DNA of 64,000 nucleotides, taken from contig NC_054743.1 of the NCBI RefSeq assembly GCF_018143015.1, forward strand, positions 30,963,934-31,027,933. The letters run 5' to 3'. The position numbers and the translations under genes are program-made. Position 1 is the stretch's first letter. Every line of letters begins with the position of its first letter. The notes beneath the pieces were generated by a model. It searched no databases. It had not been told where the DNA came from and was given only the letters and a program-made list of their open reading frames with translations. Below, one piece after another: positions 3,822-62,938 of this stretch. This DNA comes from Lytechinus variegatus. Lineage: Eukaryota; Echinodermata; Echinoidea; Temnopleuroida; Toxopneustidae.

Positions 3822-3858
3822 CTGAAATATTTCAGAAAAAATAGAAGAATACAATTAA

Positions 3859-9396: not shown

Positions 9397-9406
9397 GTAG
9401 CACTCA

Positions 9407-39464: not shown

Positions 39465-39527
39465 ATGGCGATGTGTATGGCAAACAGGGGCCCCTCCTAT
39501 GGACTTTCACGTGCTATTGCATACAAG
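39465..39527 (+). CDS. Calponin/transgelin-like first exon 1 (canonical NRGPSYGLSR)
   Basis: The frame from the third ATG (39477) gives MANRGPSYGLSRAIAYK, 17 residues like the other variants. An upstream in-frame ATG at 39465 would add MAMC. The peptide is nearly the vertebrate transgelin N-terminus (NRGPxYGLSRExxxK). The donor is AAG/GTAGGT at 39528. As I recall, vertebrate calponin genes also split the coding region just after the lysine that follows this motif, which supports the phase. A longer frame in another register overlaps it and is a shadow. Confidence 0.85.
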
Positions 39528-40439
39528 GTAGGTTCATCATCTCATAATTTGTGCCAATTTTAGATTTTTAATTGACCCTTGACCCATCTTATAGGTGTAA
39601 CGTGACAGCGATAGTCTTGTTAAGATCTAGAACTTCTTTTAGACCCTTGCAATACGATACTTTCTAAAGTGCATGCTCCGAAAAGAAGTTACCATTACAG
39701 CATGGGACAGCAGCGTTAAACGTTCTCGCCTTTCACCACCGAGCTGTCATAATTATCGAATGCTCGAGAACTAGAACGATCTGGAAGTGTTTTTCTGGAA
39801 GAAGGTTGGAAAATGTTCCTTTGACCCCGATAAGGACACGCTTCGATTCACATCAGCCTGGGGCACGCTTCATATCACACCACTTATCGTCGACTCGAGC
39901 AGGGTCGACAGGCTTGAAGTGATACCAATCATGCGATATCTATTGGCTACCCTGGATATAAGAAGAACACTGTGCCTGACAGACCATTCATTATTGTATA
40001 CCAATGATAATATAAACATTCATTATTCTATGAAGCTTTTTGAGACATTTTTAAATGATTATAGATATCTTTGTGAAGTATCAAAGTAATTCGTACCATC
40101 CCTCAATTAGTTGATAACCTCTTGCCTGATCTTATTGACGATTACAAGATTTGTTTTGCATCAGACTAGATAATCCCACAGTAACTTTGAAAATGTGGAA
40201 AATAATGGATTAGAACGTATGTATGCATTCTAGAGTGATAATGCATTATGATAGAGCCAATAAGAATGAGAATATCACAATCACACACTGATATCTAGAA
40301 TATAGTCCTTAATATATTACTGACGTATGATAAAAGAGAAATGCAGCTGAAAATTAATGCATTGCGTGAACCCTTTGATCAGGCGCATTACAGCTTCTAC
40401 AACGGTACTCACGCCAGCCAGCACAAATATGGCTTCCAA

Positions 40440-40610
40440 GACATTTGCTCCGGCGATAATTGGTCCGCTATAACTTCCACACGCAAATGGAATCACCAAC
40501 TTCAACCGTGGATTTAAACCTATACCCTATTCTAAACCTAACTCTACTAACATAAACCCCTATATATATAGACGAAATGAAGTTCGGAGCAATTGTCGCC
40601 GGAGGAAATA
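40440..40610. repeat. Repeat with GGAGCAAATGT / GGAGCAATTGTCGCCGGAG
   Basis: GGAGCAATTGTCGCCGGAGG (plus, near 40588) and the inverted ATTATCGCCGGAGCAAATGT (minus, near 40450) form an imperfect inverted repeat around TAGGTTTAG-like words. A minus-strand frame here (40317-40505) is therefore not considered a gene. Confidence 0.5.
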
Positions 40611-42148
40611 TCGTTTCAACCCACCAGCACACACACACACACTCGATACCTCCACACAAACTACAAAGCAATACCCACCATTATATACACACATGCATTC
40701 TCAGCAATTGAAAATCATACATTTCACCCGAATTCCCGAACCTTATTCATTTTGCTTTCTAATGAAGATGTGAAACTATCAAAACTATTTTTTTTAGAAA
40801 GTCTTCCAATTTTTTTTTATGATCACCTTTCACCTACTTGCTATATCTCAGTAGGGAATCTAATTAGAAGTGACATGCTACTTCACATACAATATTTCTG
40901 TAGGCCTGTAATTTTATGTGTGATATATTCACTTTTAAATTGGGCAAAATAAGAATTTTATCATGTAATTAATATTCTTCCCCTCATTTCCCGAACTTAG
41001 ATACAAATGTCGAACATGGATGACGGGATTTTGTCTCGAAACTTAAACAATATTGATATCCTAATGAAAGGCCTCATAATATTTGGACGCCTTTGCAGAC
41101 TGTACTGTTGGTTCTGCAATGCAAATGTCACAGTGCACGCCAGTTTTGTTAAATCAATTACCAGTAGGACAAAGAGTCGAGTGTAAAATATATCAAGTAA
41201 TATTTAAGGGGCGACAGTATTAATGTTATTTTCTTTGAAAATACCTTTTATATAAGCATATATATATATATATATAATACGTGTAAGCAGACTAATAAAG
41301 TAACATCTAAGGTATACAATCCAGTTTAAAGTGAACAATCCTTATTAAACATAACCATGAAAAAAAATTAATAGAGATATATGTTAGGAATATTACTGAA
41401 TGAAAGAGTATACTTTTCGGATATCTGTAAATCAAAACTTGTTAAAGCGCTCACACCCACACATACCTACATCCACGAGGTCTAATTATATTATATCACC
41501 AAAATAACAATAGCTCTTATATGAAGATTCAATTTTCACAGAAATATATAAATATTTCTACACGATATTCACGATAGAATTTTCGATATTTTCCACTGGT
41601 GACCCTTCTTGTGCTGAATGATATCCATACATATATAACTTCATGAGCACCCAGACTAGCGTAAAGTCAAAAAGTACTTGCAATTAATAAAGACAAAACT
41701 TTCTGCCCGAACCCCCGTGAAACAATGGATCAAATGTTTTGGGCCTCGGCACGGTGACCGTGAGAACCCGAGTATTCATCTCGGAATGAATTAGAGAGAT
41801 ATTCTTTGAAAGAACGTTAACATTATTCTTTCATGTCTGCGTGTAAGGGTGTGCGTGTGTGTGTATTTTGTGTGTGTGGGGCGGAGTATCTGCAGTATTT
41901 TAAATTTTAAGTCGGGAAATGTAATGTTAACCATATTTTGAAGTGTGTAAATCCATACACACACTATAAAACTTATTATAAATTACCATTGCACTTTGAT
42001 ATCAGTAATGTTTGGCGATGGTTCACACATCAATCAACATTTGTAGTTAACTAAGAAAGAAAGAATCACTGGTTTAATATGACATTTATTCTGTTGAAAA
42101 TAGGAGAATATTCTGCAGATTAAAGCTTAGGCACATTTAATATCCAGG
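40611..42148. other. Calponin-type intron, no gene seen
   Basis: AT-rich; a short (AT)n run at about 41257-41276 and a TG run near 41845-41877. No exon of a CH domain was found. Confidence 0.4.
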
Positions 42149-42302
42149 TGGACATTTCCTAAAGCTGTTCGAAAGTTAAGAACGACTGGTGGACCTTTCT
42201 TACGCACTTATCCATCGCCAATGAATACACCACTTGCCACAAGAAAGGATCACCAGTCGTTCTTAGAGTCACTCGTAACTCACGAACAGCTTTATGAAAC
42301 AT
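42149..42302. mobile_element. MITE family A, copy 2
   Basis: The left end GGACATTTCCTAAAGCTGTT and the right end AACAGCTTTATGAAACATC are inverted. It shares ATCGCCAATGAAT and CCACAAGAAAGGATCACCAG with copy 1 at 19340-19500. Confidence 0.85.
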
Positions 42303-42919
42303 CAAACAGGTCAGGTAACCCAATAGACAAGTATTCTCCCATCTCATGGTGTTCTGCTTAGGATTATTGCTTGCAGACGCTCACACCCTCACGCCCGCTC
42401 CCACGCACATCCTTGCGCGCACACTTCAGCATCTACTTTACAACGTCTAATTAGCCTGCAGGCACAGACCTTGGTTTTTGCAATTCGCATTGTACATAAC
42501 GCAGAGTCTGAAGTAGTGAGTCTAGATTCACTATGTACTGCTGCTGGCTCTACGATATTTATTATTTGAAACAGAGATGTTGACGTCTAGTCTTCACTGT
42601 AGACATGGTATAATATTGGTTATAGTGTGAAATATGAGTCTGTGCTTATAGAGACAACTGTCTACTTTCGACAGGAGCGTACTCAACAAGTAGTTTGTTA
42701 AACGACACAACATATACTGGAATATGATATTACAACCCCTAATTAAGTAAGCAACATAAAGGGCCACACACTGTAAATGTTTAGACACACGTACTCTACA
42801 CATTGTTAGCGCATGATGTCATGAGCATTATAGGTAAGCATTCATTGTGGGTGACCCAAATATCTCCTCAGCTTACCAGGCTAAAACGTTTCACAATGTA
42901 ATCCATTAACTTTCCTATT

Positions 42920-43205
42920 CAGTGGCATGATGGGCCAAAAATTTGTAAGGGCTTTATATGGCGTATCGGGCAATTTATTTTAAAAGTTACGAGTGAGCGA
43001 AGCGAGTGAGCATATATTTTGACATTTGTATTTCAAATTTCCAATTTTGTGATAGCTTTCGACATAATATTCAGAGTTCTTTCTTTCCTTTCTTATTGTT
43101 CTCTTATTTCTTGGTCGTGAAAAACTGAGGGGGGGGGGTGCAAACGCCCCTAAGGCCCCCAATCTGTTCGCGTAACTGTTCCTCCTACAAAATAACGAGG
43201 CCTAC
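42920..43205. repeat. Probable MITE containing GAGCGAAGCGAG
   Basis: It begins TTCAGTGGCATGATGG, has GTGAGCGAAGCGAGTGAG at about 42991-43009 and a G-run segment near 43129 followed by CAAACGCCCC. It resembles CAGTGGC-ended elements. Ends are approximate. Confidence 0.45.
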
Positions 43206-44460
43206 GAGTTAAAATGTCAATAATATACAATCCAATCATTTTTTTTCTTAACTTCTTTATTTCACATCTTAAAATTCAAACAAAATATAAGATTTATATG
43301 ATTAATTCAAAGACCAACAAGACTGAAAATATGGTCTCCAAGTCAAGGGCATCACCCTTTTATTGTAATTTGTAAAAGATTAAAACCTGAAAATCTGCTT
43401 GGCTTTTATCTTTTCGAAATTAATGGCGAAATCGTTATAATGTGATTTCTTAAATTCAATGTAATAATGTAGTTTCTTAAATGTTTGTATTTATTCGCTA
43501 GTAGTCACTGCGAACACTATAGAAACAAAATATCATACTTCATATGTTTATATACATCCATTATGAATAATAGTATACAAACTGAAAATGATATAGAGTA
43601 ACCAGGTCAATTGAATTATAAGGAGCTGAAAAACAATTTTAATACAAATTGATCATGCAGGTGTAAGGGGATGATTAATAATCTTGCTCTGGGCAGTTAA
43701 TCAAAGTATCTGAACGAATTCCCAGTTTGTACATTTCGACTAACATATAACTTTATCATGGTCTTTGTGAGAAAGTTGAAAACAGTATGAATAATCATGT
43801 TTATAAAGCGAATAAATACGCTATAAGACACGTGACATGTAGATTGGCCCCAATTTACAAAAGTACTATTATAGTAGCATTGTCATCAAATGGTAACTTT
43901 GAAAAATAATCTTCAGTTTGTTTGGAATTTATGTATAGTTTCTATATTTTGTTTGGAATTTTATGTACAGTTACCATAATAATTAATGACTGCAAAGTTG
44001 CCATAAAATCAACGTTATGTCCAACGGCGCAATGATAATTTGCGTTCATTAGATTTTAGTTTTAGATATTATAATCATTCCTGAAACATATCGGAAGTAG
44101 GTTTTTGGAGGATTTCCGAATAATTAAAATGTATTCATTTTAAATATAAACATTTCACACCAAAATTTTAAATTAAAATAGCATGACATTAACAAAGTTA
44201 TTTGACTAAAATAACTTAACCTTGTGTAAAAACTACTATTGATCCTACAAGTTTTGAATAAGCACATCATAGCCAATTTTTTCATTATTCAAGGTTCTTA
44301 TGTGCAACCACAGCAGTTACCGCAATGTGTGCTTACTCAACAATATCATACGATTCCTCTTGTGTTTCACGAAACAATTAACAATGCCCCTTTGTAGCAA
44401 AATCTGAGTATGCTACCTCTGAATCCATTTTCAGATTTAAGAGAGCTTATTAACGACTGT
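43206..44460. other. Calponin-type intron, no gene seen
   Basis: AT-rich with a local direct repeat (TTGTTTGGAATTTATGTA near 43919 and 43950). No exon signal. Confidence 0.4.
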
Positions 44461-44588
44461 TATTCCCCCCCCCCAGAAAAGAAGTTCGTCGAGTGGAAAA
44501 CATGACAAGTGTCAATACCTGCCTAGTGAAAAACATTAAACAAAGGCTCCATTTTAACATTCAAACATTGAACAGAAAACAACTTTAT

Positions 44589-44821
44589 CGTCGGCCTTAT
44601 GCCAAAAGGGCCTTAACTGCTTTTGTTCATTCCGAGATAATGGCGTTTATAAAGGTTTTGGCCTCTCTAATAATCAAAAGTTTGTGGTCGTTTTTTGCTT
44701 TTGAAGCCAATTTCGATAAACGTGTTAAGTTATTAAGTTTTACATGAAATGTGTTAAATTTATTATAAAATATTCAGAACCCCTAAACTCGGGTTAAGGC
44801 CCTTTTGGCATAAGGCCGACG
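44589..44821. mobile_element. MITE with perfect 29-bp terminal inverted repeats
   Basis: CGTCGGCCTTATGCCAAAAG, then GGCCTTAAC, at 44589-44617 is exactly inverted at 44793-44821. TTAT borders both ends, a possible target duplication. The frame crossing it (44493-44747) is not coding. Confidence 0.88.
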
Positions 44822-45349
44822 TTATATAGATATACCACATTTATTCTGACCTTTGACGGAAGAAATATTGTGCTTGGATGCATATCGGGATTGTTTTCAT
44901 TTTTCCCCGTTTACGCCGAAATTATGTAATTGGTTTAAAATTATCCTTACCAAGCCACACTGCCCTAAGCTTTTAGTTACATTTTTTTAATAAATCGCAT
45001 TTTGCTTTTAATGTATTCCAAGAAGTAAAATTATTTTATTTGAAGTTTGGCATAACGTTAGGAATAACAAAATCGTAATTTGGTTTCGCATCAACACCTG
45101 TGGGCGGAGTGAAGTCTAAATCTGCTTCAAGGCGCAGCCGATGATGACGTCATTACGATTTGGAATTGAATTTGGTTTTATTTCTACAGTGTGGCTCGAA
45201 CTCGACTGAAGTTCGACTTGAGTAGTCCTACCACCATCCTGAACTCTGATCGCTAAGATTTCATTGGTTGGAATGTACATATCAAATTTTATTGTAATTT
45301 CTTTAAAAACGATGTTGCAACGAATCGTATAGTATGCACGGGACTTTAG

Positions 45350-45510
45350 GCAGCACCATTAGCTCAGTCGGTAAAGAGCGAGGGGTTCGTATTCCGGTGT
45401 TTCGGGTTCGATTCCCACATGCACTAGTGCACTCTGGTAGGGCATCTAGCTTCGTCACTGGGCCCCTCTGGTAGAATCTTCTGTTTCTGTGTACACGCAT
45501 TCTTACTTGT
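45350..45510 (+). repeat. tRNA-derived SINE, copy 2
   Basis: A-box-like TAGCTCAGTCGGTAAAGAG at about 45360 and B box GGGTTCGATTCCC at 45404-45416. The ends do not fold into an acceptor stem; a non-tRNA tail follows. Confidence 0.75.
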
Positions 45511-46344
45511 TTAGCAATAAACCAATCAGGTATGACAAAACACTACCACAAACCTAGTCCACCATCATATTACGAAATAATAACAATACAAAAATCTACC
45601 ATGATGATTATTGAAATATCTAACATTGAGTAGTTCAACATCTTCCTAAGATAAACGTTTCTTCTCTCTTTGCGTGTAAGATTCCCAGATTGTGAATATA
45701 GGAATGAGGTGAAATCTTATTTGAGAACTGGCTGTCCTCTTCGACAGAAATTAGACTTAAATTCCATCTTTGAGTTAAAGTCTATCTGTACTATTTAGCA
45801 TGTGCCACGATCAACACGTAATCAACCCGCTGGAATTCTTTTGGGAAACTTGCCTCCGACTAAAATTTCACACCATCAACATGTTGATTTCATTGAGACA
45901 ATATTAGACACCCTTTCCCCGGTGGAAGCTTATCATGTTATAATTTATTGTAATGAAGACGTTTACTTAATAATTGAAGAGGTGTAATTAACACTTCTGG
46001 TGATATTTGTAGCAGGTCTCGGCCAGGCGGGGTTGGGTAGGAGCAGAGATCCTACACATTTAACTTTCCTCGAATCGGTCACAGCTGATATTCATCATCT
46101 CTCAACATTTTTCTGTCCTAATATTCTACGATCCCGTGCGTGGTTTCGTCATTTCGAACGGAATTTACGTTTCGGTGAGAACGTTTTAAGGATTATTCAC
46201 TCATCAGTATTTGATATATATCTGAGTATTAAGGGGAGAGTGGTGACTTATCTTGGCTAGTAAGTGCAGCGATTTCTGGGAAGGTTTGACATTGGAGATC
46301 GTAATTTGGTTCATTCCTCGTTTCTTAGTCATCTATCTATCAGC

Positions 46345-46413
46345 ATGTCTTATCAAACACAAAGAGCTAACCGCGGTCCGCTACTTGGAATGTGGCGGGC
46401 GATTCACGCGAAG
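46345..46413 (+). CDS. Calponin/transgelin-like first exon 2 (divergent)
   Basis: 23 codons: MSYQTQR followed by ANRGPLLGMWRAIHAK, then AAG/GTAAGC. ANRGP, the G two residues on, R-A-I and the final K align with first exon 1, while SYGLS has become LLGMW. Support is the shared motif, length, phase and donor. It lies about 6.9 kb after exon 1 and 8.6 kb before exon 3. Confidence 0.7.
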
Positions 46414-47104
46414 GTAAGCCAATGATCATAAATAATAAAAATCAGAATCATTCCAAACCATCATCGTTCATATCAGATCATCGCACCAATTGATTTTAAC
46501 CACCCATTTCCGTTTGTACAGTGACAACGGCGAACGTGGCGTTTTCACACCTAGATATTTGGAGTAATTAATGTACTATATTTTTTAAGTAAGATCATTA
46601 TCGTATTTTAAATGTTCTTTGGGCTATTCAAGGAAAGGACAAATCGAATTTTCATCCGATATCCGAAAAAGTCGGTTTCATCGACAGCATCACAGTCGGA
46701 CACCTGTGCTTTTCATCCAGTGGCATGCTAGGGAAGTTTTCATATCTGATAATTTGTCAAATGGACGACAAATGCTGAGTCATGGTTGATGAAGCAAGCT
46801 TCCCTGAAGTAACAATTGTTTGAAATATTTCATATGCTAATGCTTTTTTTTCAAGACAAGTCCCTATCTCTGAACAGCATTGCGGACCGGATAAAAGCTT
46901 ATTATTAAAATCTACTAATCGAAATTCTCGCTTGATTTCTAATTTTGTCAGATAGATAGACCAATCGCTCTCCATGTTTCCTTGTCTCTGTTTTCTAGTG
47001 CTGTTGCCATATTACCATCGGTTGATTTGTTTAACCTTGATGCTACCATAGGATGGTCACTGATATCATTGACCACTTTTCCTCGGACACGACTTGTACC
47101 TCAG

Positions 47105-47201
47105 GGACCTATCCACAGAGCATTAGTCTATTGTTACTGGGGGTGCTGAGCATTGTCACAGCACCCCCAGTAACAATATATAATCCTCTGTGGATAGGTC
47201 C
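47105..47201. mobile_element. 97-bp hairpin element, family B copy 1
   Basis: GGACCTATCCACAGAG and CTCTGTGGATAGGTCC are inverted ends. Inner arms CTATTGTTACTGGGGGTGCT and AGCACCCCCAGTAACAATA surround a small loop. Copy 2 is at 61078-61167. Confidence 0.85.
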
Positions 47202-48726
47202 ATGTTGTACCTTTCAATTACATTCTGTGCATACACATTACGATTCTAGACCTAACTCTTAAATGAAATTACAAGACATGTTAACCCAAAGGCATCTCAT
47301 TCAGCATTCTGTTCAATAATGATAAGACACGCAAGGGCTTAATCACACTAAGATGCGGTAGGCCTACAAGTTGCTCATTCAATGGCGACTTCTTTCTTAT
47401 GTCACTATACATAACACCATTCGAATTCTTCTGAAATTCTTCCAGGCCGTAGTTCTAGCCTCTTGTCCATGTGTCCCCTCCCTTGCCTGCCATCTTTCCT
47501 CCACCCCTCTTGCATTTCTACTTGCGTATCAAAGGCACAAGATTCTCAAATGTCAGTCTGGTCTAGCGAATTGGCGCCATTGAGGTTTGCCCGGATCAGG
47601 TTTTTGAAATATAAACCAAAGCCGCTAAGGAACTTATGACATGCCCCCTTTTTTGTACTTACGCCCAGCCCTCCCCTCCTTGACACGGCTGGTTTCATTT
47701 TCAACCAACCCCTTCTCATATTACGTTTAAATTTATAGAAATATTAAATATCCGAGGCTAGATGGTAGATTCATTTCTAACTACCATTTCAAGGTCAATG
47801 ACACAACTAATTCATAGATATTTCCACTTCTTTAATTATGCTTGTCCTCTTTCCTATACTCTGACAAGTATCAGTCTACATGGTCCTAGCCAGAGCAATC
47901 TTTACCTTCAGAACCTGATGCCATGCCTTCATTCTTTATCCAAATTACCAACGCAGTTTGTTATATCGACTCATAAAGAAGATTTCCAATTTGTGTAATT
48001 GGAATATGTTGGCATATTCTTAAGCCATAAATACACTTTATAATGCTGCCTTCACACCAAAAAGGCTGATTCGAAAACCGTACAAGCCAATACTGAAAAT
48101 AATTTAATAGTTTTAGTCTATATAGTCGATTTTACCTCAGTTACATTGACATAATGGTCGATTCCTTATACTTAACTATCGCTTTCATGTTGTATTTCAA
48201 TTACAGAAATGGTGATAATTTTAGTGACACATTTCAAATGTGCATATCTCGATACTATCTGCCTTTCCATTGTTTTTCATTCATACTTTCAAATTGTCAA
48301 GCCCCTTTCCCATCAAAGAGAGTCTGGGAGTAAATTCACAATTCCTATACTGATTCTTCAGCAATACAGCAGTCTCCTGTACTTACTCGACCTTTAGGTA
48401 ACGAAACACTTAATTCCAAGTGGTATAGAGACTGTTCCAAGGCGAAACCAACACCGCAGGTAAAAAACGAGAAGTAAAGTCATGCGACTAGTGGAATTCT
48501 AACTTTAACTGTGTTTGGTTAAATGTTGGTGTTTCAAATCATGGCATTCGTGCCAAATCGGGTTTGGCATTGTAACCGATCTAACATAAAGAACATTCGA
48601 TGTTTAAGAATCATACGTTCAGAATTAGAGATTAGAAATATATAGCATTTTTCATAATCATATCAATCTATAGTGGCAATAAATATGTTACACATCTGGT
48701 ATTGTTGTTCCGACCATTTGTTCTTG

Positions 48727-48935
48727 GAAGGCGCCGTTTTCTAGTGGTTCTGACTCTTTTCTTAAATCGGAGGGTCATGGGTTCGAATTCCAAAGCGTGT
48801 TTTCCTTCAGCAAGAAATTTGCCTACAGTGTGTAGTACTCTACCCAGGTGAGATGAATGGGTACCGGGTAGGATTCAAAACTCTTTGAATGCATTGAACG
48901 CTGGAAGGCAGCTCGAGCTAAAGCCATGGTATTCA
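48727..48935 (+). repeat. tRNA-derived SINE, copy 3
   Basis: The head AAGGCGCCGTTTTCTAGTGG is followed by B box GGGTTCGAATTCC (48779-48791) and a body with ACCCAGGTGAGATGAATGGG and GGTAGGATTC. The pattern is common among echinoderm SINEs. Confidence 0.7.
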
Positions 48936-49611
48936 CTCTTTATCGCTAAAAATGATATCACATTATTTTGTATATTATTTTGAGAAGTATATGGCCAGAG
49001 TTTAAGACCGAGGTTTCACAAAATGAGGTACAAGTTGTAACTTAGTACATTATTCCGATAAGCTAGGAAAATTTCAATTATTTTCTGGATACAGACACAA
49101 TTATAGTACGATTTAATGACAATGGAACTGCATGGGTCTACTGGTAGAGTCAATGGCGTAGAAATGACTCACAGATGAGTTACACCCCCTCCCCCTTTTA
49201 CGCACAAAGAAGAAGATGAATTAGATTTTTTTTTAAAGAGAGAAAAGAAAACCAAAGGGGAATGGAACTAAGGAAAATATTTCTAACTTGGTCCCCAAAA
49301 CAATTCCTTTTAGACTACAATACCACCCTTTCATTTCAATGCATGCCTTATGGTTATCTCATTATTGTCCTACTGATATTAAGTGACATGACCGGCGAGA
49401 CTGTTCTTGCTCAGTTGCCATGGTGTCTTGCGGGTCGCAGTAGACGCCATCTATCATGGTTTCCTATATCGTGTTCCTAATATTAACCATAATCACTAAC
49501 TTTACTAATAAGTGCGGCGAAATGAAAAAAAGTCCATAACGAACGATGAACAAAATCGTAGGATTAAGACCTACTTCTTCCGCTCCCTTCCCTTGGTCGA
49601 TTACTGAGGGG

Positions 49612-49720
49612 CCATGTGGTCTCGTTTCTGAAGGCATTGGACTCAAGATTGTGAGGTTCTGAGTTCGACCCTTGCTCGGCCATTTTCTCCACTTAAACAA
49701 AAAAGGCCGAGAGTAATTTT
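49612..49720 (+). repeat. tRNA-derived SINE, copy 4
   Basis: GGGGCCATGTGGTCTCG and GAGTTCGACCCTT (49661-49673) are A- and B-box-like. The following CCATTTTCTCCACTT resembles the body of copy 1 (CCATTGTCTCCACTT). The element runs into the TA repeat. Confidence 0.65.
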
Positions 49721-49724
49721 ATTG

Positions 49725-49728
<4 letters not shown>

Positions 49729-49785
<57 letters not shown>
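49729..49785. repeat. (TA)n microsatellite
   Basis: About 28 uninterrupted TA units. Confidence 0.95.
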
Positions 49786-49789
<4 letters not shown>

Positions 49790-50590: not shown

Positions 50591-50599
50591 GATTTTCCA

Positions 50600-53560
50600 T
50601 TACTCATGTCATGACTTTTTTGTGTGCCTATGACCCCCCCCCCGTAATTTAAGCCAATGTAAATTTAAATCTAGAACTAAAATTGCACCAGTGAATATCA
50701 CCATATACATAATATAGTGATAAATGCGAAATTGGATGGATTGTAGAAAAAGTTTTCATCTATAATTTGTAATTTTGGTTTTTACAGAGGTCTCATCTTT
50801 CAAAGGTTTTTCAACTGTAAATTTTTAAATATCGTATATTGATAATCGAACTTGGAAATTCACAATGCAAATGGCAAAATTCCCATATGGAAATAGAACT
50901 ATCACAGCATACAAATATTTTCTATATTGAAAATCGGTTTTATATAAACTTTTTTCTCTACAGGTTTGTTAGTTTGTTTAAAAAAATGATTTGGAAATCA
51001 TTCCACTCCAAGGTCACGATGCATAAAACTTAGAATGTATGGTACTTAAACTTTAAATTTGCCCAACCGTGAAATATGCTAATGTATATAAATTACGACT
51101 AATATATGCATACATCAATAATTCAATGTAAAGAAGAATATAACAGTAAAGAACCGGATTTAATCTTGTTTGCATAGTGTCAGATCAACACCTTCAAGTT
51201 TCCTCCAAAATATTCTTTTTAAGACCAGGCATAAAAATTTTAGTTCATGTAAATGAGCAGTTATTTATGCATACATGTAAATCAGCATCTATAGTTTGTC
51301 AAGTACACAAAACCCATATCATTATCTGATTGAATATTTTGATTCCTTCAACAGAAAATGCAATGGAAATCACAAATTAATACCTAAATAAGTTTGTAAA
51401 TTTACGTAATTCATGCACAAAGCAGTATCACAATGTCTATAGAAGTGCGCAACCTTTTAAATATCTTTGTAAGATAAAGAACGGCATTTCTGTTACATAC
51501 CACACTAATGAAACTCACATTTTTATGTAAAAAAGGTATGCTAATTTATTTATTCAAATGACCAGAAAAAATATATGATTGTATTACCCTGCATTTCAAT
51601 GGAATGAAACAAGTTAAGCTTTCTAGAACGAGACAAGGACTTCTTAGAGCAGGATGAGTTGAATAACTCCTTGGATCTTGCTAGGATTTAGTATAACTGC
51701 TAATCATTTCATCCGTGTTAAAGAGGTATTCACAATTTCTGCTACCAAATATATCTTTTTAATGGGAACAGGTCATGGTCACGTAGAAGCAGATACCAGA
51801 GTACTTGCTCACTGCGATGATGATGTAGAATAGTTACACTAAATACAGGTTCAATGGGGGCTGCTGAAATATGTGACATTATTCTCATTTAGTTTCATGT
51901 GAATGCAATTTTGATGAGATTTGCATAAATCTAAACTAAAAAATTGGGTCCCAGTCACTATTTTCATCAAATCCTAACCAAAGTTAATGTTCTAATCAAA
52001 AGTGATTGGTAGACGAGGACATTGCCCTTTTTAAATGTTATCCCATTAATATGTTTTTCTTTTACCTTTTTAAAATTTGATTTCCATGTTACTTTGTATA
52101 AAACTTTCATTTTCATGGAATCCTATTTGCCATTGATGCTTTAACTAGAAATTACGTACATGCAGAAATTTGTCTTTTATTATGTATTAGGTTTTTGTAA
52201 ACAAGGGCCATTATATCGCTTTTGGCACCCTATGTAGGATTAATGCTTCATCGGAAAAGAAAGGGCAAAACACAAATTGCTTTTTGTTCAGCCCTATACC
52301 AAATTTTTGTGTTCTAGCATTTACATGAACATGTAAATTTGATATAATTTCCATAGATTTTAACATGTAGATTCTTATAGTCACTAATTTAATTCAAAAC
52401 TAATGAAATATTAAAATTGATAAATTTGCAAAGGAATTATCCCTTTTAAGTGTTACATGAGATTTGGTTCACCCTAAAAACTTTTTTTTTTAATTTCAAG
52501 CAGGTTGTTTAAGCCCGTCAATCATAAATCATAAATAGTTGAAAGTTTGAATGAAGTTTAAGTTGTTGAAAACGTTTTCATTATTTAAAAAGAGTTAAAA
52601 CAGTTGTGTAAAAGTTTAAACAACTTGTTGTTAGTGTGACGGGTTTAAACAGCGTGATATATTTTTTACCGTGTTGATTTTGCGCTTTTGCAGATTAGCA
52701 TATATTTAGCATATAATTTAATTTTTTAATATAATCTTTGTCAAACACCAATGGAATGCTATCTAAATTTGATGCTTAGTCTGAAAATGACCCATATGTA
52801 AAGAATTAGGCGTTTGCCTTTTCTCTACAGTGAAATAATATATTTTGATGAGTATGCATGCCACGTGCATTTCCATAAAGAGAAAAGTAGGCCGACCAAG
52901 AAAGATGCATAGTTAAAATCACATTTTGAAGAAGATGTTCATAAATCAAACTGATCTCTTTACAGTTCGTAAAGCATGTTAGGTGTCAGCTGAAAAGAAC
53001 TTTCAACTATACTAGCTTTTTGTACAAACAAACAGCTTTCGGGATCTTTTACACTTTCGCGAGTTTTTGCTATCAAGTCTCAAAAAATCCTTTTCTCTAT
53101 TCATCTATTTATTATTATTATTAATTTTATTATTGTAATTTATTTTATTTATTTTTCAGTTTTGGGGGAGGGGTCACAAAACTGCAATATGAATGTCATA
53201 TCTAATATCCTAATCATACAGGCAGCCGATTACTTCATAACTCTGCCTGGATGTGTGGGCTGATGTATATGCATGCCTAAGACACGTGAACAACTGACGA
53301 AGAATGCTTGCTGGAATTGACCTTGACGTGCTTGAGTTCAAATGGCTACATCTTCTTCATTTTCAATATCATGAGATAATTCTATGGTATGACCATTTCA
53401 ATCTTTAGTAGAGGAAAAACGTGACATTTTCTTTTTAAAGTCTATAAATATATTTTTTTCTTTATTAAAATTGTTATCATTTTGACGAACGCAGCCTTCT
53501 GCCTGGTACCATGGGAATTTTGATTAGGACATAATTTGAAGCATTCGATACAATACATGA
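50600..53560. other. Calponin-type intron, no gene seen
   Basis: AT-rich sequence without protein-like frames or clear inverted-repeat elements. Confidence 0.4.
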
Positions 53561-53562
53561 AC

Positions 53563-53567
<5 letters not shown>

Positions 53568-53646
<79 letters not shown>

Positions 53647-53655
53647 TGTGTGTGT
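53568..53655. repeat. (TA)n(TG)n compound microsatellite
   Basis: About 22 TA units run into a TG tract with two interruptions. Frames across it are artefacts. Confidence 0.95.
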
Positions 53656-55035
53656 CCACTATCACTCTCTCTATATATGGCCTTCTCCGGTATGTTGAGG
53701 AATAAATCAATCAGTTTGCTGAGAAAAATGCCGTGGAAATAATATCGTAGTTTTGTAAGGAGCGAAGTTATCAAAAATAAAAGGTAAAATCACACTCTTT
53801 GTCAGTGCCCATGATGTGACAAAAAGGAGAAGTCGTGAAAACACGTCTGTTCACGGGCATACAGATTGTGAAACCCACTTTTTGTGAAAATTAACCAAAT
53901 AAATCAGACACTATCTAAATGTAGAACTCATATATAATAAGTGATACAGGTGGCTAGATAATGATCGAGTAGAAATTTAAACTTGATTGAAATCACAGTT
54001 ATATCTCCGCCTGAAAGTGCAGATAACCTATGAATGATTGACCATTCAATTAACTGTAATTCAAAACGTGTAAATGTGTACTGTATAGTTAAAACTATCA
54101 ATTACATTATCCTTCCATATTATGTAAGAATTAATTAATGTAAAACCTGTGCATGTGTCTATAGATAAAACTATCAACGTCATTAGCCTTGCATATATGG
54201 GAATAAAAAACTGTAATGAACATCTCAAACAACTTCCTACATCTGATTTAACCCTTCATACAAATATTTTATGGAAAATTATATCTTTAAAAAATAGTTT
54301 GTGTTCTTTTTGTCTTCCGTTAAAAGCAATACAAAATCCAAATCGATTATTTTGTTGACTTGCTCAAAGCTTCTCTAACTAGTCCGTTCGAAATGGCTGG
54401 TCTAGCATGTGAAGTTCAAAAGAAAAGGGAGGATATAATAGTTCATGATTTAGGCTAATTTGTAGAAGTTTCTGGGTTTATTGGTATGAGGCTATGACTC
54501 TGCCAGAGAATGGGGTACAAAATGTTCCTATGGACAAACATTGACGTTAATTAATACTGCATCTATTCTTAATGATGTTTCCATCATCCCAACTGTCTCG
54601 TTACTCAATTTATGGAGACACCCCTAAAATGGCGGGGTCAATTGAAATACCACTGAGTAAAGGGGTCTAGAGGTCAATTAATGACTCACCGAGAAGACCA
54701 GCATCTGATAAGCACATACAATTTCGATCGCGCGTGCGTGCGTAATCGAAAACGAAGGTTCTCTGTATGAACGCCCCTTATGCATATCAGCACGTCCCCT
54801 TTGGAGTTTTAGGCCATTTTCATGAGCGCGCGCGTTGTACCTCAAACTAGGGACTCCGATTACCTGGTCAGAGCCTAAAAGGTAAATAAACTTTCCGGCT
54901 GGTTATTTGAATTCAGTCGGCATACTGGGTTTCGCTAGAATAGTGTCAGTGTCGTCTGTGTGGATTCGGTACACAATCCGATCAGCCATTTAACATTCTT
55001 TACTCCCCTTGGATAAATACACATAAATAACCAAC

Positions 55036-55086
55036 ATGGCCGCGCAAGTTGCACCAATGGGCGATCAGCGAGCCATCAGAAGGAAG
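55036..55086 (+). CDS. Calponin/transgelin-like first exon 3 (MGDQR type)
   Basis: 17 codons: MAAQVAPMGDQRAIRRK, donor GTAAGA. The ATG is in good context (CAACATGG). Upstream sequence (54720-55035) has GC-rich and CG-containing words (CGCGCGTGCGTGCG, GCGCGCGCG), unusual in this AT-rich interval and compatible with a promoter. Confidence 0.85.
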
Positions 55087-56576
55087 GTAAGACTAACAAA
55101 GGCTCATTTTCTTTAACAACAGTTCAAATTTATAGGATTGTAAAACCGAAGGTCACGTGCCACAAGAAGTCTAGTTATCCCATAATGTCTTTTTAAGGAC
55201 CGTAACACCCGCTTGGACGTACACATACAAAACCTTTACCCCCTTGCACACGGCACCAAAGTAGGTAGCTATTAAACCCTCGCGTACTTACACAAACTGG
55301 ACAAAACGGAGGGTGATCATCAAAGTTATTATCAAACTGAGATAACCAGATTGAGTCTTGATATATTCTTAGTGATGACACACCTGTCCTTGTCTGGTTT
55401 GCACCTACATATGAGTTCACAAGCAACAAATCTGTGCACACGGGTGCATTCCTTGCGCTCCGAGTATCCTTAGCTGATACTGATATCAAACCATTATATT
55501 ATTTTCACATCTTCATTAGATTGATGTCATGGGCGAGACATTTTATTTGTTCATCAAACCTATGAACATAACTCGTTTCTTTTTGTATTTTTGCTTTCAA
55601 TATCGCATATCGGGTTCAGCATGTTTATTTATAAACAATATATGAAACATACACCTGTAGACAACAATCGAAAGAAGATGTCATTTTCTGCTGATACTGT
55701 CTTGGCCTTTTCATGTTTAGAAAGGGTGATCACTGTGGACCACCATCCACCGAGATTGTTTATTTGTATTATTCTTGTTCTGGAAACATCGCCCCTTCAT
55801 TTGTTTTTTTTTAACGCATTCCATCCGTGGTGCCGTGACTTGAAAGCCTTTCTTCAACAGAGGCCGATATTCATGATATCCAAACTGATTTGAGACTTTT
55901 AAATCGAAACCTCGTAGGTTTCGTTGAAACATAAAATATAGAAATAGAATGAGAAAATTTATCGATTTACAAATGTTGATACTGTTAATAATCTTTATCA
56001 TGAAATATACTCTTAAAAATAGTAAGGATAATAATGCTTGTAATGACAATGGATTGTTGGAAATTAGTTTATTGACAGCGATGAAAGCATATACACTAAT
56101 ACGCAATTAGTTAACGAAATACAATGTGCGACAGATTTGCCATTTCTATCAATTATTTTTACGATATTTTGCAATACTTAACATGTTTTTCCAAGTATAT
56201 ATAACCACAGTTCATTCCCCTCAAAACGAATAAATTAATAAATACAATATTTACGAAAATTATATTTAACTGCATCCTCCCACAGTACTTAATTTAAACA
56301 ACGTATTCTGTAAGACCCTGTGAGTTTCAGTGCACTAAGGAATGAAACTCTATATAGTTTGATATAAACAAAATATCGGCAGATATTAACAAAAACCCCG
56401 TCAATTGTAAACATATATTCAAAATATAGTCCTATACCAGCATTATAGCATTGTATGTTTACAAGAAAATATTCCATGAAAGAAGGTGTGTGAATTATTT
56501 GGACCTACAAAGGTAAGAAATTAGAAAATTATAAACATTCACTAGATTAATAAGATATTTGAAGAGTAAATTTATT

Positions 56577-56616
56577 TTATTTATTTATTTATTTATTTTT
56601 TTTTTGGGGGGGGGGA
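56577..56616. repeat. TTTA repeat with T and G runs
   Basis: TTTATTTATTTATTTA followed by a T run and a G run. Confidence 0.8.
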
Positions 56617-57218
56617 TAAGCCATAACAGTCTTGTTGGTTTTCGCTCAAGGCCTGTTTGCTTTTAAGTTGTTTGAAATGTTATATACATGTACATATTTC
56701 ATTCATGCAATGTTACACGATTGTGTTATACTGCCCAAATAGCCTGTATTGCAAGAATGATATCGGGCCTTTAAGGGAGAGTGGTTTAGTCAGAGATTTA
56801 TGGAGGATAACAATTGGAATGTTATTGAATTAATGATTTAATACCTTCTGAATACCTTTTGCGTCCATGATGTTCTTGAGGAGGGGCTGTATTCTACTGA
56901 ACATTCTACATTGTGTGTGCGTGTGGGTGCCTTGGAAAAGCGAGACGTGTGTGTGTGTGTTGAAGATGTGCAATTTGGATAGACAGGGAATGGGTAAGAA
57001 ATGCTGGGCTGGAGGGGTCGCACTGTTGAATGGATCCGCATGATTGATTGAAGATTTCATCAAGTGATGCGTCTTAATACTAAACTTCTGGTGAGTGCCA
57101 GATAATTGGGGTTTGGGTAATAACTTTACAAGGAGCAACTGTCTGGGAGAATGTCGCATGCCTAAATGTGGAAACCCCTCCCTCTCTCCAAGGAACTTTC
57201 TTCCATCTTCTGTTAACC

Positions 57219-57228
57219 CCATAAAAGG
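57219..57228 (+). promoter_or_regulatory. Perfect CArG box (SRF site) with nearby CATTCCT
   Basis: CCATAAAAGG matches CC(A/T)6GG exactly, and CATTCCT (MCAT-like) follows at 57235-57241. It is about 410 bases before first exon 4. CArG boxes drive vertebrate transgelin and calponin in smooth muscle, so the placement is suggestive. Confidence 0.45.
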
Positions 57229-57369
57229 TCGTTGCATTCCTATCGAGTATGAATTCCTATCCTCCCGATACCAGATGCCCTAGATTTGTTACCCGCCCAT
57301 CCGCCCGCTTCCACATCCTTCCAGCATCTAGGAAGCACGCGCGGAACCAGAGGGAGTGGATCTAACTGG

Positions 57370-57374
57370 CCAAT
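57370..57374 (+). promoter_or_regulatory. CCAAT box upstream of first exon 4
   Basis: GGCCAATGAG, about 260 bases before the ATG. Position only. Confidence 0.3.
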
Positions 57375-57635
57375 GAGATTTCAGAACTACCTGCGAGTAC
57401 CTGTTTTTTGCGCGCTTGCTACCTTCTAATTAAAGACATCAAGGAGGACACGTGCGTACTAACCCACCAGAGCGTACGATTTATTTACGAATTGTAATTG
57501 CTGAAGTAGTACTACTTCATCTTACTTCCAGTTATCACTGTTGCTGTGACTGTCGTAGTGGATAAAGCCATATCCTCGCCTCTCCTTTACTGACTCATTT
57601 AGCCTTGGTATAAGGATACACGCTAATCTATCAAG

Positions 57636-57686
57636 ATGGCGACACAGGCTGCACCTATGGGCGACCAGCGTAAACACGCTGCAAAG
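57636..57686 (+). CDS. Calponin/transgelin-like first exon 4 (MGDQR type)
   Basis: 17 codons: MATQAAPMGDQRKHAAK, donor GTAAGC, start context CAAGATGG. It is only 359 bases from the next variant. A consensus CArG box, a CATTCCT motif and a CCAAT box lie 260-420 bases upstream. Confidence 0.87.
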
Positions 57687-58045
57687 GTAAGCCGAAACTT
57701 TAGGAAAACAACCGAAAACCTGATAGGAAATGAAAACACTTTGAAATTATTTTGACATCATTGGCGCGCGTCCGTTTGTGCGCAGAAAGATTATACGTTT
57801 ATCCCTGATGGAACACGCATGTAGATTCATCCTCCAATAATACTTCCATCTTTGTCCACTTGGAGGATATGGGATTCATGAATTCTATTGCATAAAAGAG
57901 CCCCTATCTGTGAACGCGCCTCGTCACTCCTATTCCGTCATTGTCCGGGCTTTCTGGTTCAACGTGGTAGTAGCTTTGGTGAAGCTCATTTCAAACATTC
58001 TTAATATCCCCTTCTCGGTGGTTACAGACAAGAAGATTAATTGAA

Positions 58046-58096
58046 ATGGCCGTTCAGGCAGCACCTATGGGCGACCAGCGCCAACATTCTCTTAAG
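58046..58096 (+). CDS. Calponin/transgelin-like first exon 5 (MGDQR type)
   Basis: 17 codons: MAVQAAPMGDQRQHSLK, donor GTAAGC, start context GAAATGG. It shares CAGCACCTATGGGCGACCAG with exon 4. It lies so close to exon 4 that its promoter must fall within the intron that follows exon 4. Confidence 0.87.
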
Positions 58097-59042
58097 GTAA
58101 GCTTGATCATAAAAAGAATTAAGGGCGACTTCGGATATATGCCAGTTCAAGGTTCCTAATCATACAACATTCCCTTGGTAAAAAAAAGTTTTGCATCATA
58201 CCGCAACACCAGGGTGTAAGCTTCATTTATCTTTGTATGGGCATTGCAAATTAGTGAAGAATTAATTGGATAATTAATTGATGTCTGACATTCCTCGGGT
58301 ATTAGCTACTTGCCAGAGACGCGCAGCGTAGCGGCTAAATAATTGTTCTTTAGTATGTCCATTTGAGTTCGATAATAAATTATCATGAATCACAATATAA
58401 TGCGTTTGCTCTTTTGGCTTTATCAAATTCTCTTTATGAAATATTGAATTTTCCCTCTGCAAGATGACACACCTTGAAAGATTTAAATGTCAAATTTTGG
58501 GTCATCAATTACCCACAATCTTAATCACTGTGAATACTTTTCACACTTCATTAATAATTGTCGAATCCTACAATCTATTGTCATTTAATCTGAAAGTTGA
58601 ATATCCCCATGCTTCGTTTCGCTGAACTTCTTATTCATTTATCATCATCTTCTAAACACTTTTATATCCATATTAACTGATGTGAATATATTATATTCAT
58701 GCTTGCTCGAATGGTTTCAAGTGTCATTTTCATCATCTATGACGATAAATGCTATTGTTTGTTGGAGTTCATCTTCTTTGTATATATTTTTCAATATTAT
58801 AATCATTCCGTTTTGAGGATTATTTTTTTATATTATTGTCAGTTCTTTTTGCCCAATTCTTTTTAGGTCATAGGACATGCTTCCGCGTTATTCCACTACT
58901 ATGAGTATGCTCTTCAGAATGTAGTGACGGATGACTCTTTGTAATACATCTGTACTTTGTGATATTAGCTTGGCAAAGATTGTATTAAGTTGTCGTGGTA
59001 TGCATGTTCAATTATTGAAACGCATCGATATTGTTCGTCTTT

Positions 59043-59275
59043 TTTCAAGAAAATAATCTCGGAGATAATGATTTAATTCTGAAATTCATATGCTTCCTTC
59101 GAATAGATACTCGTATACTCCTAGAGGAGATAGGCCTCTGAAGTGAGATCATTTTTCTTTTCGTCTTCTTTTCAAGAAGACTTTCAGAAATGATGATTGA
59201 ATTCCGTAATTCAAATGCTTCGTTCGAATGAATACTCCGACACTCCAAGATGAGTTAGGCGTCTGAAGAGAGATT
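59043..59275 (+). repeat. Tandem duplication of about 120 bp
   Basis: 59043-59155 and 59170-59275 share TTTTCAAGAA, AATGAT-type sequence, TTCAAATGCTTC / TTCATATGCTTC, TTCGAAT, ATACTC and GGCGTCTGAAG / GGCCTCTGAAG in the same order. It is diverged but unmistakable. Confidence 0.75.
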
Positions 59276-59814
59276 GCTATAACTTTTTGTTCAAGGATTG
59301 CAAATAGCAGTCGATTTTCTTCTTTTTGCGATGATGCATCTAAATTTTACGCGTGTCAGTGCATGCGTCGATAAAAGTGCGTCACTTTTACAATCCTACT
59401 AAAAATAACTTCGATCATTGTCGACCGATCATCTGCAATGTTCTGCATTTCTTAACCAGCTCTATTTACCATTTTACAGTACTCTAGAACCCCAATCATT
59501 ACCATTGGATGTACCCCTCCTGAAACTAATCGAAATTCTTGGCGATGTTGGAATAGCTTTGGTAAATCCCAGGGGCGTTACATCGTAAGCCCGAAAGCGA
59601 TTCGTTTCCGGCGACGACGTGTCCTAGATCTCATCTCTATCATCTGTGACTGCCAAATGCAGTTTACCATTGTCATGATTGTCGTTTATTTTTGTTTCTC
59701 GGAATGCTGGGTGTAATTGGATCTGACTTTTGATAGACGACTCCTCCGCATTTAAGTGATGAATTCATCTTATACTTTACTTCATTCTGTATTCTAGTTA
59801 ATGATCATAGGTCC

Positions 59815-60313
59815 CGGTCCTGGTTTATAAACTTCAAAATAACGAATGCAAACACAACCGTACAATGGCAGTTTGTCCTAAGGACCTATAGCAACGGGTA
59901 CGATTTTATTTATTGGAATGCATGAAGAAGGCGATAACTTCTTACATTCACATTATAAGTATTATACTTTTACCTTCTTCAAGACCAAAAGTGGTTGAAG
60001 AATCAAACCATTAGTTTTCCTTGGTAGTATAAACTCTAGTTCTTGAGGAATCAATCCGGACATTGTCCTGGTTTATAAAATTTAAAATAACGAATGCAAA
60101 CACAGCTGCACAATGCCAATTTATTCTAATGGTCTATAGCAACGAGTACGATTTTCTTCTTTGAATCCAAGTGGAAGGCGATAACTTCTTACATTCACAT
60201 TTTAAGTATTATACTTTTACCTTTCTCAAGACCAAAAGGGGTTTGAAGAATCAAAACCATTAGTTATTCTTGGCAATATAGTTTCTAGTGATTGAGGATT
60301 CAACCCCGACATG
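59815..60313 (+). repeat. Tandem duplication of about 245 bp
   Basis: 59815-60058 and 60065-60313 share GTCCTGGTTTATAAA, AATAACGAATGCAAACACA, CTATAGCAACG, GGCGATAACTTCTTACATTC and AAGTATTATACTTTTACC, and end in the same TTGAGGAATC / TTGAGGATTC words. It lies in the intron between first exons 5 and 6. Confidence 0.88.
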
Positions 60314-60669
60314 GTTTAGGCAATCAGCAATGTGAAATGTTGTTGCAAAACATAGACCACCCGAAATGCACACCATCATCTTCAGGGGGTGCAATGAAAT
60401 GAGAAATATGTCTAATATTTTTCCATCCTCACTAGATTTACAGTGTCAGTTCTATCTATATCGCAACTGTTGACTAAAGAGAGAAAAAAATCAGATGACA
60501 TTTTTTCAATACATTGTTATTGTTCTCTTTCTTAAAATAACGTGATTCGTAAAAAAAGCGATATAATGATAACACCAATTAGGTTTTTTTTTTTTACAAA
60601 TTATACTAAACTCATATACTAAGCATAATACAATACGAATGCAGATGACTCCTTATACAGTTATAATAA

Positions 60670-60725
60670 TAATAATTGGATTTATATAGCACTTTTCCAG
60701 AGGATACCGAGCGCTGTACAAGGAC
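60670..60725. repeat. AATTGGATTTATATAGCAC repeat fragment
   Basis: AATAATTGGATTTATATAGC, then GAGCGCTGTACAAGGAC. This word pair resembles the 3' part of common invertebrate interspersed repeats. Confidence 0.5.
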
Positions 60726-61077
60726 TGTTTATGAGGACCGTCTGCAAAAAAATCATAAAAATCAAATATTGGGCCTAAAGGAATGGTTAATGAATAACTT
60801 AAAGCTGTCCGAAGACATCCAGTATTGATATTTCTGAATAAAGATAATTATTTGCGCTAAAAGTATTTTGATACCGTGCAGTGCAAAAATTAGCTGTGAG
60901 CAGCATTTGAATAGGGTAAATATATAATGTCCTCTTTTAAGTTGTTTATGAAAAAGTAAAATTGGAAAAAAAGTTACCTTCATCACCAATCAAGAGTATA
61001 ACATGAAGGAGTAAAAGTGGAAAATGAAATTAACCCTCAAATAATTGGATTACATTATGATATCTAATGATAATCTG

Positions 61078-61167
61078 GCCAAGGAGGATTGTCTATTGTT
61101 ACTGGGAGTACTGTGACAATGCTCATCACCCCCAGTAACAATAGACTAATCCCCAGTGGATAGGTCC
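61078..61167. mobile_element. Hairpin element, family B copy 2
   Basis: TCTATTGTTACTGGGAGTAC and CACCCCCAGTAACAATAGAC, then CAGTGGATAGGTCC. The outer left arm is eroded. The loop GTGACAATGCTCA is the inverse of the loop in copy 1. Confidence 0.8.
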
Positions 61168-61484
61168 CGGGTGATAGTATACAGAAGATGCAAAGAATTG
61201 GTGAAATAAACACAGAAATCTATCTCCTTCAACATTTAGAAACATGCTGCAAAATAATTAGATAAATGCAACGAAGAAAACGTCTTTTAGAATCATTTTC
61301 AAAAAGTAACGATAAATAGCAAAGTAAATTCAATCGTTGATAGACCGAGCTGTGCAAACGACTAAATAAAAATGTAGAAAATGAAATTTTAAAAAAAAAT
61401 CGAAATGTCGAAAACGAAGCTGAAAATCATGTTATTGAAAATGCATTTTTCACAGAATGTGTATAAACTTCGGAAAAAAATGAA

Positions 61485-61525
61485 AGAATGAACGAAAGAA
61501 AGAACGAAAGAAAGAAAGAACGAGT
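61485..61525. repeat. GAAA/GAAC short tandem repeat
   Basis: GAAAGAAAGAACGAAAGAAAG type units. Confidence 0.8.
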
Positions 61526-62552
61526 TATATTTAAATATTTCAAATGGAACTCAAAATTGTACAGAAACTCATTAAGGAATGGTACCACCGGAAACACGTC
61601 GGGTACTGCCCCGAAGATTTTCAACTAGTATAAAATTAAATAGTAAATAGTAAAGAAAAGGAGAAAAAAAAGGAAGAAGAAACAAAAGTATGAAAAAGAA
61701 ATGTCTGGTTATGAAATTCCAGATTAACAACATAAGTAAAAATTACTTTGTATTAAAGCTTAGGTCAGCTCACCCCTAACAAAATTCCCCGGCGCCGCCC
61801 GTGCAGATCATATTCGAGTAAATAGGTTTGATTAGAGGATCCGACCCCCCCCCCATAAAAAGGCACAAAAATAATGCCAACTTGAGTATAAGCATATTAC
61901 ATTGAAAAAGGAGGACAAAAAAGTAATCATAATGGTTGAAGAATTCCAAATACTAAATTATTATCATTTCTAATCCATAAATTTACAAATGCAATTTGCA
62001 ATTTAAAACTTCCTCAAAATTTGGGAAGCAGAGAAAATTCAACTTATCATTTTTCTTAGTATTCACGAGGGCGGACCGTCAAAAGATTAATAAATTACAG
62101 TCATGTGACCAATAGGAAAGTGACAGGTTTTGTTAATAAAATTTGAGAGTTTGAGTTAGGAAAAAAACAATGCAACGTGTGCAATGTTACAGTATTTGAT
62201 TAAAAAAAAACAAGAGACATCACTGGTGCAAACTGAGTGCATCCACGTTGTTGGAGAACGCTTCCGATCGTATCAAAACATATTCACAAAACAATCTGGG
62301 TCTATCATCTTTGTCGTGACTCATATATTAAATCACTCAAATTATTTGGTAATTGGCATCAGCCTTGTCGTGAAATCAATATCAGACGATACTTGTCACC
62401 TTTCTCCTACATCTGTCTTACATTTGCTCGCTAGTCATAAAATTAGATTCCTCTCCCGGTCATCTTCGATAAGATGTCATACAGGCCTTGCGCATCGCTG
62501 TGTTTCGTGACTCGGTCTTTCCAACTTGTCCCCACTTTCTAAAAATATTCCG

Positions 62553-62557
62553 CCAAT
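62553..62557 (+). promoter_or_regulatory. CCAAT box upstream of first exon 6
   Basis: CCGCCAATCAGC, about 330 bases before the ATG. Position only. Confidence 0.3.
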
Positions 62558-62887
62558 CAGCAAGCAGCATTAAGAGTGGCGGAGACACATTCCTGGCATT
62601 CGCGTTGTCTAAACCAATGCATATGTCACATCCCCGAGGAGAAGAAGGAGAAAAAAAAGAAAGAAGACAACGTCGAAAATCTAATTATATACCTCCACTC
62701 CCACAAAAGGGTGAAAACGCATTCTAAGAGTGTGCTGGTCGAGATGCACTTGCCATTGTCAGGGGTGACCGCGTAGCCAGTGACATCAGTCTCAATATTC
62801 CAGTTCCTACTCCTCGCCGGCGCCATTTTTACATAGGCTTAATACATTCTTTTTGTTTCCTGGACGTGTGTTTTAGTAACCTTAATT

Positions 62888-62938
62888 ATGGCGACCAAAG
62901 CAGCCCCTATGGGAGACCAACGTTATAATCAGATGAAG
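62888..62938 (+). CDS. Calponin/transgelin-like first exon 6 (MGDQR type)
   Basis: 17 codons: MATKAAPMGDQRYNQMK, donor GTAAGG, start context ATTATGG. At the DNA level it is less like exons 4 and 5 (GGGAGACCAACG in place of GGGCGACCAGCG), so it is probably an older copy. The intron runs beyond the right edge. Confidence 0.85.

Follow-up and report, generated by a model that had tools for sequence, protein, structure and literature searches.

A probable clustered array of alternative first exons in a myophilin/transgelin-like gene of the sea urchin Lytechinus variegatus

Variable first exons arranged in clusters are a familiar gene design. In the protocadherin and UGT1 clusters, tandem paralogous first exons are combined with common downstream exons, and a separate promoter is ascribed to every UGT1 first exon (PMC3325998, PMC1885805). 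Here we analyse a 64-kb stretch of DNA from Lytechinus variegatus (C4:30963934-31027933; 'the window'), which very probably holds the 5′ part of a single echinoid myophilin/transgelin-like gene with a clustered array of at least seven alternative first exons. Both calponin and transgelin serve as standard markers of smooth muscle, and it is usual to regard their N-termini as fixed. An array of this kind in the calponin family is new as far as we could find: judged from titles and the starts of abstracts, no description of a first-exon array in a calponin-family gene was found in the literature. NCBI already models several isoforms of the gene, and parts of the design are in databases.

The locus resembles the protocadherin and UGT1 clusters in having tandem paralogous first exons on the same strand, with the same donor phase and one common downstream set. 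It differs in that the variable part is a leader of just 17-23 residues, whereas the variable exon of those clusters encodes a large domain; the family, the role and the extra 3′ alternatives also differ. The urchin gene would also be a compact invertebrate variable-first-exon case for promoter-splicing coupling.

To define the first exons, we scanned both strands of the 64 kb for an ATG followed by 12-50 open codons and a terminal AAG with the donor GTRRG (R, A or G). The scan returned six exons (e1-e6; Table 1) and nothing else; allowing either AAG or AGG as the last codon added one unrelated frame in the window, on the minus strand at 24961. The initial annotation had listed six exons at these positions, each starting with ATG, encoding 17-23 residues and ending AAG/GTAAG or AAG/GTAGG in phase 0. 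All six were confirmed and share strand and phase, with GTAGG as the donor of e1 and GTAAG as that of e2-e6. As a control, first-order Markov sequences of the same composition gave a mean of 0.34 exons per 64 kb (one strand) and a maximum of 3, and six exons were reached in 0/200. Two leader types can be recognised, ANRGP in e1 and e2 and APMGDQR in e3-e6, and DNA coding for PMGDQR is common to four window exons. In the 869.6 Mb, 33-contig genome assembly, the APMGDQR DNA pattern has eight sites, four here and four in a second copy of the locus described below, whilst the reversed-pattern control has none. A chance origin of the six exons was rejected because no Markov sequence reached six and because APMGDQR is confined to the locus and its second copy. 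The NRGPSYG pattern has four genome sites (control, 0), all at e1 and at a seventh first exon, e7, of both copies. Against a transgelin probe, e1 showed a 61% match to the N-terminus (E=0.002); neither the e1 nor the e2 peptide, used alone, matched anything in the PDB. The distance from e4 to e5 is 410 bp, with no body exon between them.

The body of the gene lies to the right of the window. Within the window, probes from transgelin, Mp20 and calponin, and the protein P0001, convincingly matched N-terminal exons only, and neither a CH-domain nor a CLIK exon came to light there. We fetched a further 80 kb to the right (144 kb read in total; continued coordinates run rightward with 1 = C4:30963934) and found exon 2 once in the whole, 7.96 kb past the edge, in agreement with the earlier statement that no second exon occurs up to that edge. 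A genome-wide search with P0001 (24 candidates scored) placed exon 2 at two sites, this locus and its second copy. The seven first exons extend over 26 kb, and all have a phase-0 donor that fits exon 2. The count of six first exons was right for the window but low for the gene, which has at least seven. Two further candidates were rejected: an eighth first exon at continued 66555, which has an in-frame stop in both copies, and a weak match at 69068, a short frame without an ATG. The former (66555-66590, MVNQQPSYGLSK then stop in both copies) is possibly a broken first exon.

The absence of a second exon inside the window is the sole observation that would suggest six separate calponin genes with far-off bodies. 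We rejected this explanation, and consider it extremely improbable, because a single exon 2 follows the array, 8 kb to the right, and in NCBI products this exon is joined directly to e7 or to the counterpart of e6. Five exons, e7+2+3gamma+4A+5A, spell out exactly the NCBI protein 'myophilin-like isoform X1 [Lytechinus variegatus]' (P0008); this protein represents a cluster of 10 sequences, in which one source name is 'isoform X4'. In the related urchin L. pictus, myophilin-like isoform X4 (P0002) consists of the counterparts of e6+2+3A+4A+5A, and its leader matches e6 at 16/17 residues. The alternative outcome, that each first exon splices to a different complete gene, is thus contradicted for e6 and e7.

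For e4, two JGI proteins (P0001 and P0003) are unbroken, are 188 residues long and open with the 17 residues of this exon followed by such a body. Their source contigs are at most 1,529 and 1,786 bp. Since the same coding sequence, from e4 to the 5A stop, spans 21 kb here, P0001 and P0003 are probably spliced transcripts. Two more proteins, P0007 and P0010, begin with MGDQRKHAAK, the last ten residues of e4. The common downstream body that had been proposed for all the exons is borne out by the single exon 2 and by the models for e7 and the e6 counterpart, whilst for e1, e2, e3 and e5 we infer the joining to exon 2. A separate observation concerns the DNA just upstream of e6. On the minus strand at 62755-62826, 61 bp upstream of e6, the window encodes a peptide that shares 96% identity with residues 1-24 of the L. 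pictus protein P0006 (212 aa), which after this antisense-matching start continues into the exon 2 acceptor. P0006 may be a faulty gene model, or 62755-62826 may be a conserved upstream element; we take it to be a faulty model.

Table 1. Exons of the myophilin/transgelin-like gene. Positions of e1-e6 are those of the window; the others are continued coordinates.
Feature	Position	Strand	Sequence and donor	Remarks
first exon e1	39465..39527	+	MAMCMANRGPSYGLSRAIAYK then GTAGGT	21 codons, ATG to AAG
first exon e2	46345..46413	+	MSYQTQRANRGPLLGMWRAIHAK then GTAAGC	23 codons, ATG to AAG
first exon e3	55036..55086	+	MAAQVAPMGDQRAIRRK then GTAAGA	17 codons, ATG to AAG
first exon e4	57636..57686	+	MATQAAPMGDQRKHAAK then GTAAGC	17 codons, ATG to AAG
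first exon e5	58046..58096	+	MAVQAAPMGDQRQHSLK then GTAAGC	17 codons, ATG to AAG
first exon e6	62888..62938	+	MATKAAPMGDQRYNQMK then GTAAGG	17 codons, ATG to AAG
first exon e7	65675-65731	+	MCEANRGPSYGDLRQRQMK	found via P0008; 1.7 kb past window edge
exon 2	71963-72078	+		in phase 0, out phase 2; starts CH domain
exon 3gamma	74185-74254	+		third exon 3, found via P0008
exon 3A	75320-75386	+		
exon 4A	77953-78090	+		
exon 5A	78742-78936	+		ends in stop
exon 3B	85344-85410	+		
exon 4B	87003-87140	+		
exon 5B	88347-88541	+		ends in stop

The assignment to the calponin/transgelin family, made earlier from the leader alone, was confirmed with Pfam. The joined e4+2+3A+4A+5A protein matched the CH domain (PF00307; E=5e-17, 62.5 bits, cut-off 26), and the calponin repeat (PF00402) was found at residues 160-183, with 38-43 bits in three proteins (cut-off 21.1). 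The nearest solved structure is the calponin-1 CH domain 1wyp (E=2.4e-18), and the five best solved matches are all CH domains of calponins and transgelins. As in myophilin, transgelin and Mp20, there is one CH domain and one calponin repeat in ~190 residues, with an NRGPSYG-type N-terminus in e1 and e7. The difference lies in the first exons, of which there are at least seven here compared with one in a paralogue on C11. In the 17.9 kb upstream of exon 2 that were read there, the C11 gene has one recognisable first exon (MANRPKGFGMTAELA), whereas a stretch of that length before exon 2 of the C4 gene would contain five of the seven. The idea that one such exon is normal for the family holds, over the 17.9 kb read, in this one paralogue. 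The C11 exon 2 ends at the same place and phase as that of the C4 gene, and the first intron lies ~2 residues earlier in the protein.

In the gene design that we propose, each first exon would supply the start codon and a leader of 17-23 residues, with a donor that fits the common exon 2. The choice of transcription start would, presumably through the promoter used, select the leader; the first donor of the transcript would be joined to exon 2, and first exons further along the transcript would be removed with the intron. Splicing would then select among three exon 3s, which encode part of the CH core, and between two exon 4-5 sets, which encode the CH domain's end together with the calponin repeat. 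The structure of P0002 was predicted with alignment A2 (mean pLDDT, the predicted local distance difference test score, 77) solely to locate the variable parts. In this model the leader forms a tail and the first helix (10-20) ahead of the CH core, exon 3 falls midway through the CH domain, and exon 5 lies in a low-confidence tail with the calponin repeat. The leader would account for the tail at the N-terminus and for most of helix 1 ahead of the CH core, such that the body is constant and its lead-in varies. We infer separate promoters, free combination of the 5′ and 3′ choices, and an effect on the binding of actin or partners. Such a gene would make natural domain swaps, suited to learning the role of each part, because the leader, a portion of the CH core and the actin-binding repeat would vary around a constant exon 2.

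All combinations of seven first exons, three exon 3s and two exon 4-5 sets (42/42) are open in frame to a single terminal stop. Every exon 3 alternative keeps the frame, and 3gamma and the 3A counterpart appear in products. Several exon positions with duplicated alternatives that are combinable in frame are a likeness to Drosophila Dscam (PMC1397879); the differences are that the alternatives here are few (7 x 3 x 2) and that their exclusivity and independence are putative. A more ambitious scheme is a three-tier combinatorial gene, with seven leaders chosen by promoter, three CH-core exons and two actin-binding tails giving up to 42 proteins, and with the promoter used steering downstream splicing by cell type (muscle classes, tube feet, coelomocytes). 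We offer this as a tentative possibility and would lean against it at present.

A second copy of the locus lies 9 Mb away on the same chromosome, inverted on the minus strand at C4:40.07-40.15 Mb (40070001-40150000). Collinear pieces of at least 150 bp are 80-99.5% identical between the copies, with many indels. The second copy holds e1-e6 in the same order and an unchanged e7, and in both copies all seven first exons keep the ATG, the frame and the donor. On C6 and C11, further exons of CH or calponin type also occur as such pairs, which suggests that the second copy may be an unmerged haplotype rather than an inverted duplication. To measure constraint, we compared the exons with 300 nt of flank on each side, omitting gapped sites (one-sided Fisher tests). 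Over all 15 exons, 3/1379 sites differ between the copies compared with 178/8679 in the flanks (P = 9e-9). For the seven first exons the values are 2/393 and 71/4024 (P = 0.036). Of the three exon differences, the one in e2 is a replacement and those in e5 and 4B are silent; e1 is identical, with differences at 19/598 aligned sites of its flanks.

Several points weigh against the proposed array. The support for e1, e2, e3 and e5 consists of homology, phase and constraint; no product with one of these leaders was seen among the proteins compared, and the NCBI products are models. When e1-e6 are taken alone, 2/336 sites differ compared with 64/3591 in the flanks, which is not significant (P = 0.07). 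The glycine of the e2 motif is replaced in the second copy (NRGP to NRAP). The C11 control spans 17.9 kb only, such that first exons farther out would be missed. A motif scan upstream of the seven first exons found no consistent core-promoter motif, and acceptor-like sites, the best at e2 and e4, precede some of the ATGs; these would fit a spliced 5′ untranslated exon, though their number is about that expected by chance.

Another explanation is that the array is partly dead, with e2, e3, e5 and perhaps e1 being unused relics of duplication, and only e4, e6 and e7 working. Only for e4, e6 and e7, or counterparts of these, is there product evidence; constraint on e1-e6 taken alone is not significant; and the sequence at continued 66555 may be a broken relic present in both copies. 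Set against this are the ATG, frame and donor kept by all seven first exons in both copies and the contrast between exons (3/1379 sites) and flanks (178/8679) in the 15-exon comparison. We consider a partly dead array unlikely.

The promoter and acceptor data bear on a different explanation, that e1-e6 are mutually exclusive second exons behind a shared upstream untranslated exon and one promoter. This would fit the lack of a consistent TATA element before the first exons, and also the acceptor-like sites upstream of the ATGs, which lie at 16 nt in e2 (crude score 14) and at 104 nt (14) and 33 nt (12) in e4; the eight real acceptors of the gene score 9-15 on the same crude scale. However, sites scoring at least 13 are expected 0.16 times per 150 nt, or ~1.1 times in the seven stretches, compared with the 2 seen, and so may be due to chance. 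The best scores at e1, e3, e5, e6 and e7 (9-11) neither show nor exclude an acceptor, and a spread of 26 kb is, in our reading, the usual shape of a variable-first-exon cluster. A shared upstream exon seems rather unlikely, and we prefer separate transcription starts. Perfect CArG boxes occur within 600 bp upstream of e3 (54623-54632, at -413) and e4 (57219-57228, at -417), with none within 600 bp of the other five first exons; they are too few to support a claim.

Turning to the 3′ alternatives, set B (3B-4B-5B) could instead be a gene in its own right, whose first exons have escaped notice, or a tandem copy in decay. In L. pictus the set B counterpart, which is without exon 2, is a separate 'partial' protein at NCBI (P0012). 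A similar short protein of Diadema setosum (P0013) is not labelled partial, and is B-like at 8/10 diagnostic sites of exon 5 although not in exons 3 and 4. The 3B donor (GTTCGT) and the 4B acceptor are poor, and no product was seen that joins exon 2 to 3B of L. variegatus. On the other hand, there is no exon 2 between sets A and B, and 3B is entered in the same phase as 3A. Between the copies, set B differs at 1/400 exon sites, a silent change, compared with 95/1665 sites in the flanks (P = 1.6e-8). Among 133 codons, 28 differ silently between sets A and B and 18 differ by replacement, which is unlike a dead copy.

The exon 5 of P0001, which opens with e4, is B-like at 7/10 diagnostic sites and A-like at 3/10, whilst that of P0003 is A-like at 6/10 and B-like at 1/10. 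Exon 5 alone is informative for these two proteins, because the sites in exons 3 and 4 fail to separate A from B: P0001 has 3 A and 1 B of 5 sites in exon 3 and 1 A and 0 B of 3 in exon 4, and P0003 has 2 A and 1 B of 5 and 2 A and 1 B of 3, respectively. Exon 5 also leans to B in P0004 (B:A 6:2), P0005 (5:2) and P0007 (6:3), and is undecided in P0010 (4:5). Taking both sides together, we find a separate or dying set B rather doubtful and favour its use as an alternative 3′ end of the same gene. Annotation may split genes of this kind, as with the separate partial protein for the L. pictus set B counterpart.

Among other echinoderms, myophilin-like proteins of Antedon (X1/X2) and Amphiura (X1/X5) likewise have an alternative repeat-bearing exon 5, but differ from the urchin gene in that both isoforms compared share their N-terminus. 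Since each pair is identical through exon 4 and differs only from exon 5 onward, the alternative tail is likely to be old in echinoderms. Exon 3gamma (KNTFAKR) resembles an exon of the sea cucumber Apostichopus (P0020) and one of P0016 (KNKFAKR). As Diadema antillarum P0009 starts MAFQAAPMGDARKTAMK, the APMGD leader type is, as judged from these sequences, common to L. variegatus and that species.

The rest of the window contains several minor features. On the minus strand, 15202-15573 is a Tc1/mariner-type transposase fragment (Sleeping Beauty helix-turn-helix domain, E=1.1e-16), and exons at 3570-5010 resemble GOPC (Golgi PDZ coiled-coil protein); a run-together query of the latter found no support in Pfam. 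On the plus strand, 12869-13351 may be an exon coding for an IQ-motif protein (IIQQAWRRH; IQ_SCN5A_C, E=0.00085, short of the Pfam cut-off), and a frame at 9104-9397, with no Pfam match, ends in a stretch similar to it. Within the region of the array, 47104-47193 and 61079-61168 form an inverted-repeat pair of ~90 nt that is 89% complementary. The two also match as a direct repeat, and each is therefore roughly palindromic; the pair is probably a small mobile element.

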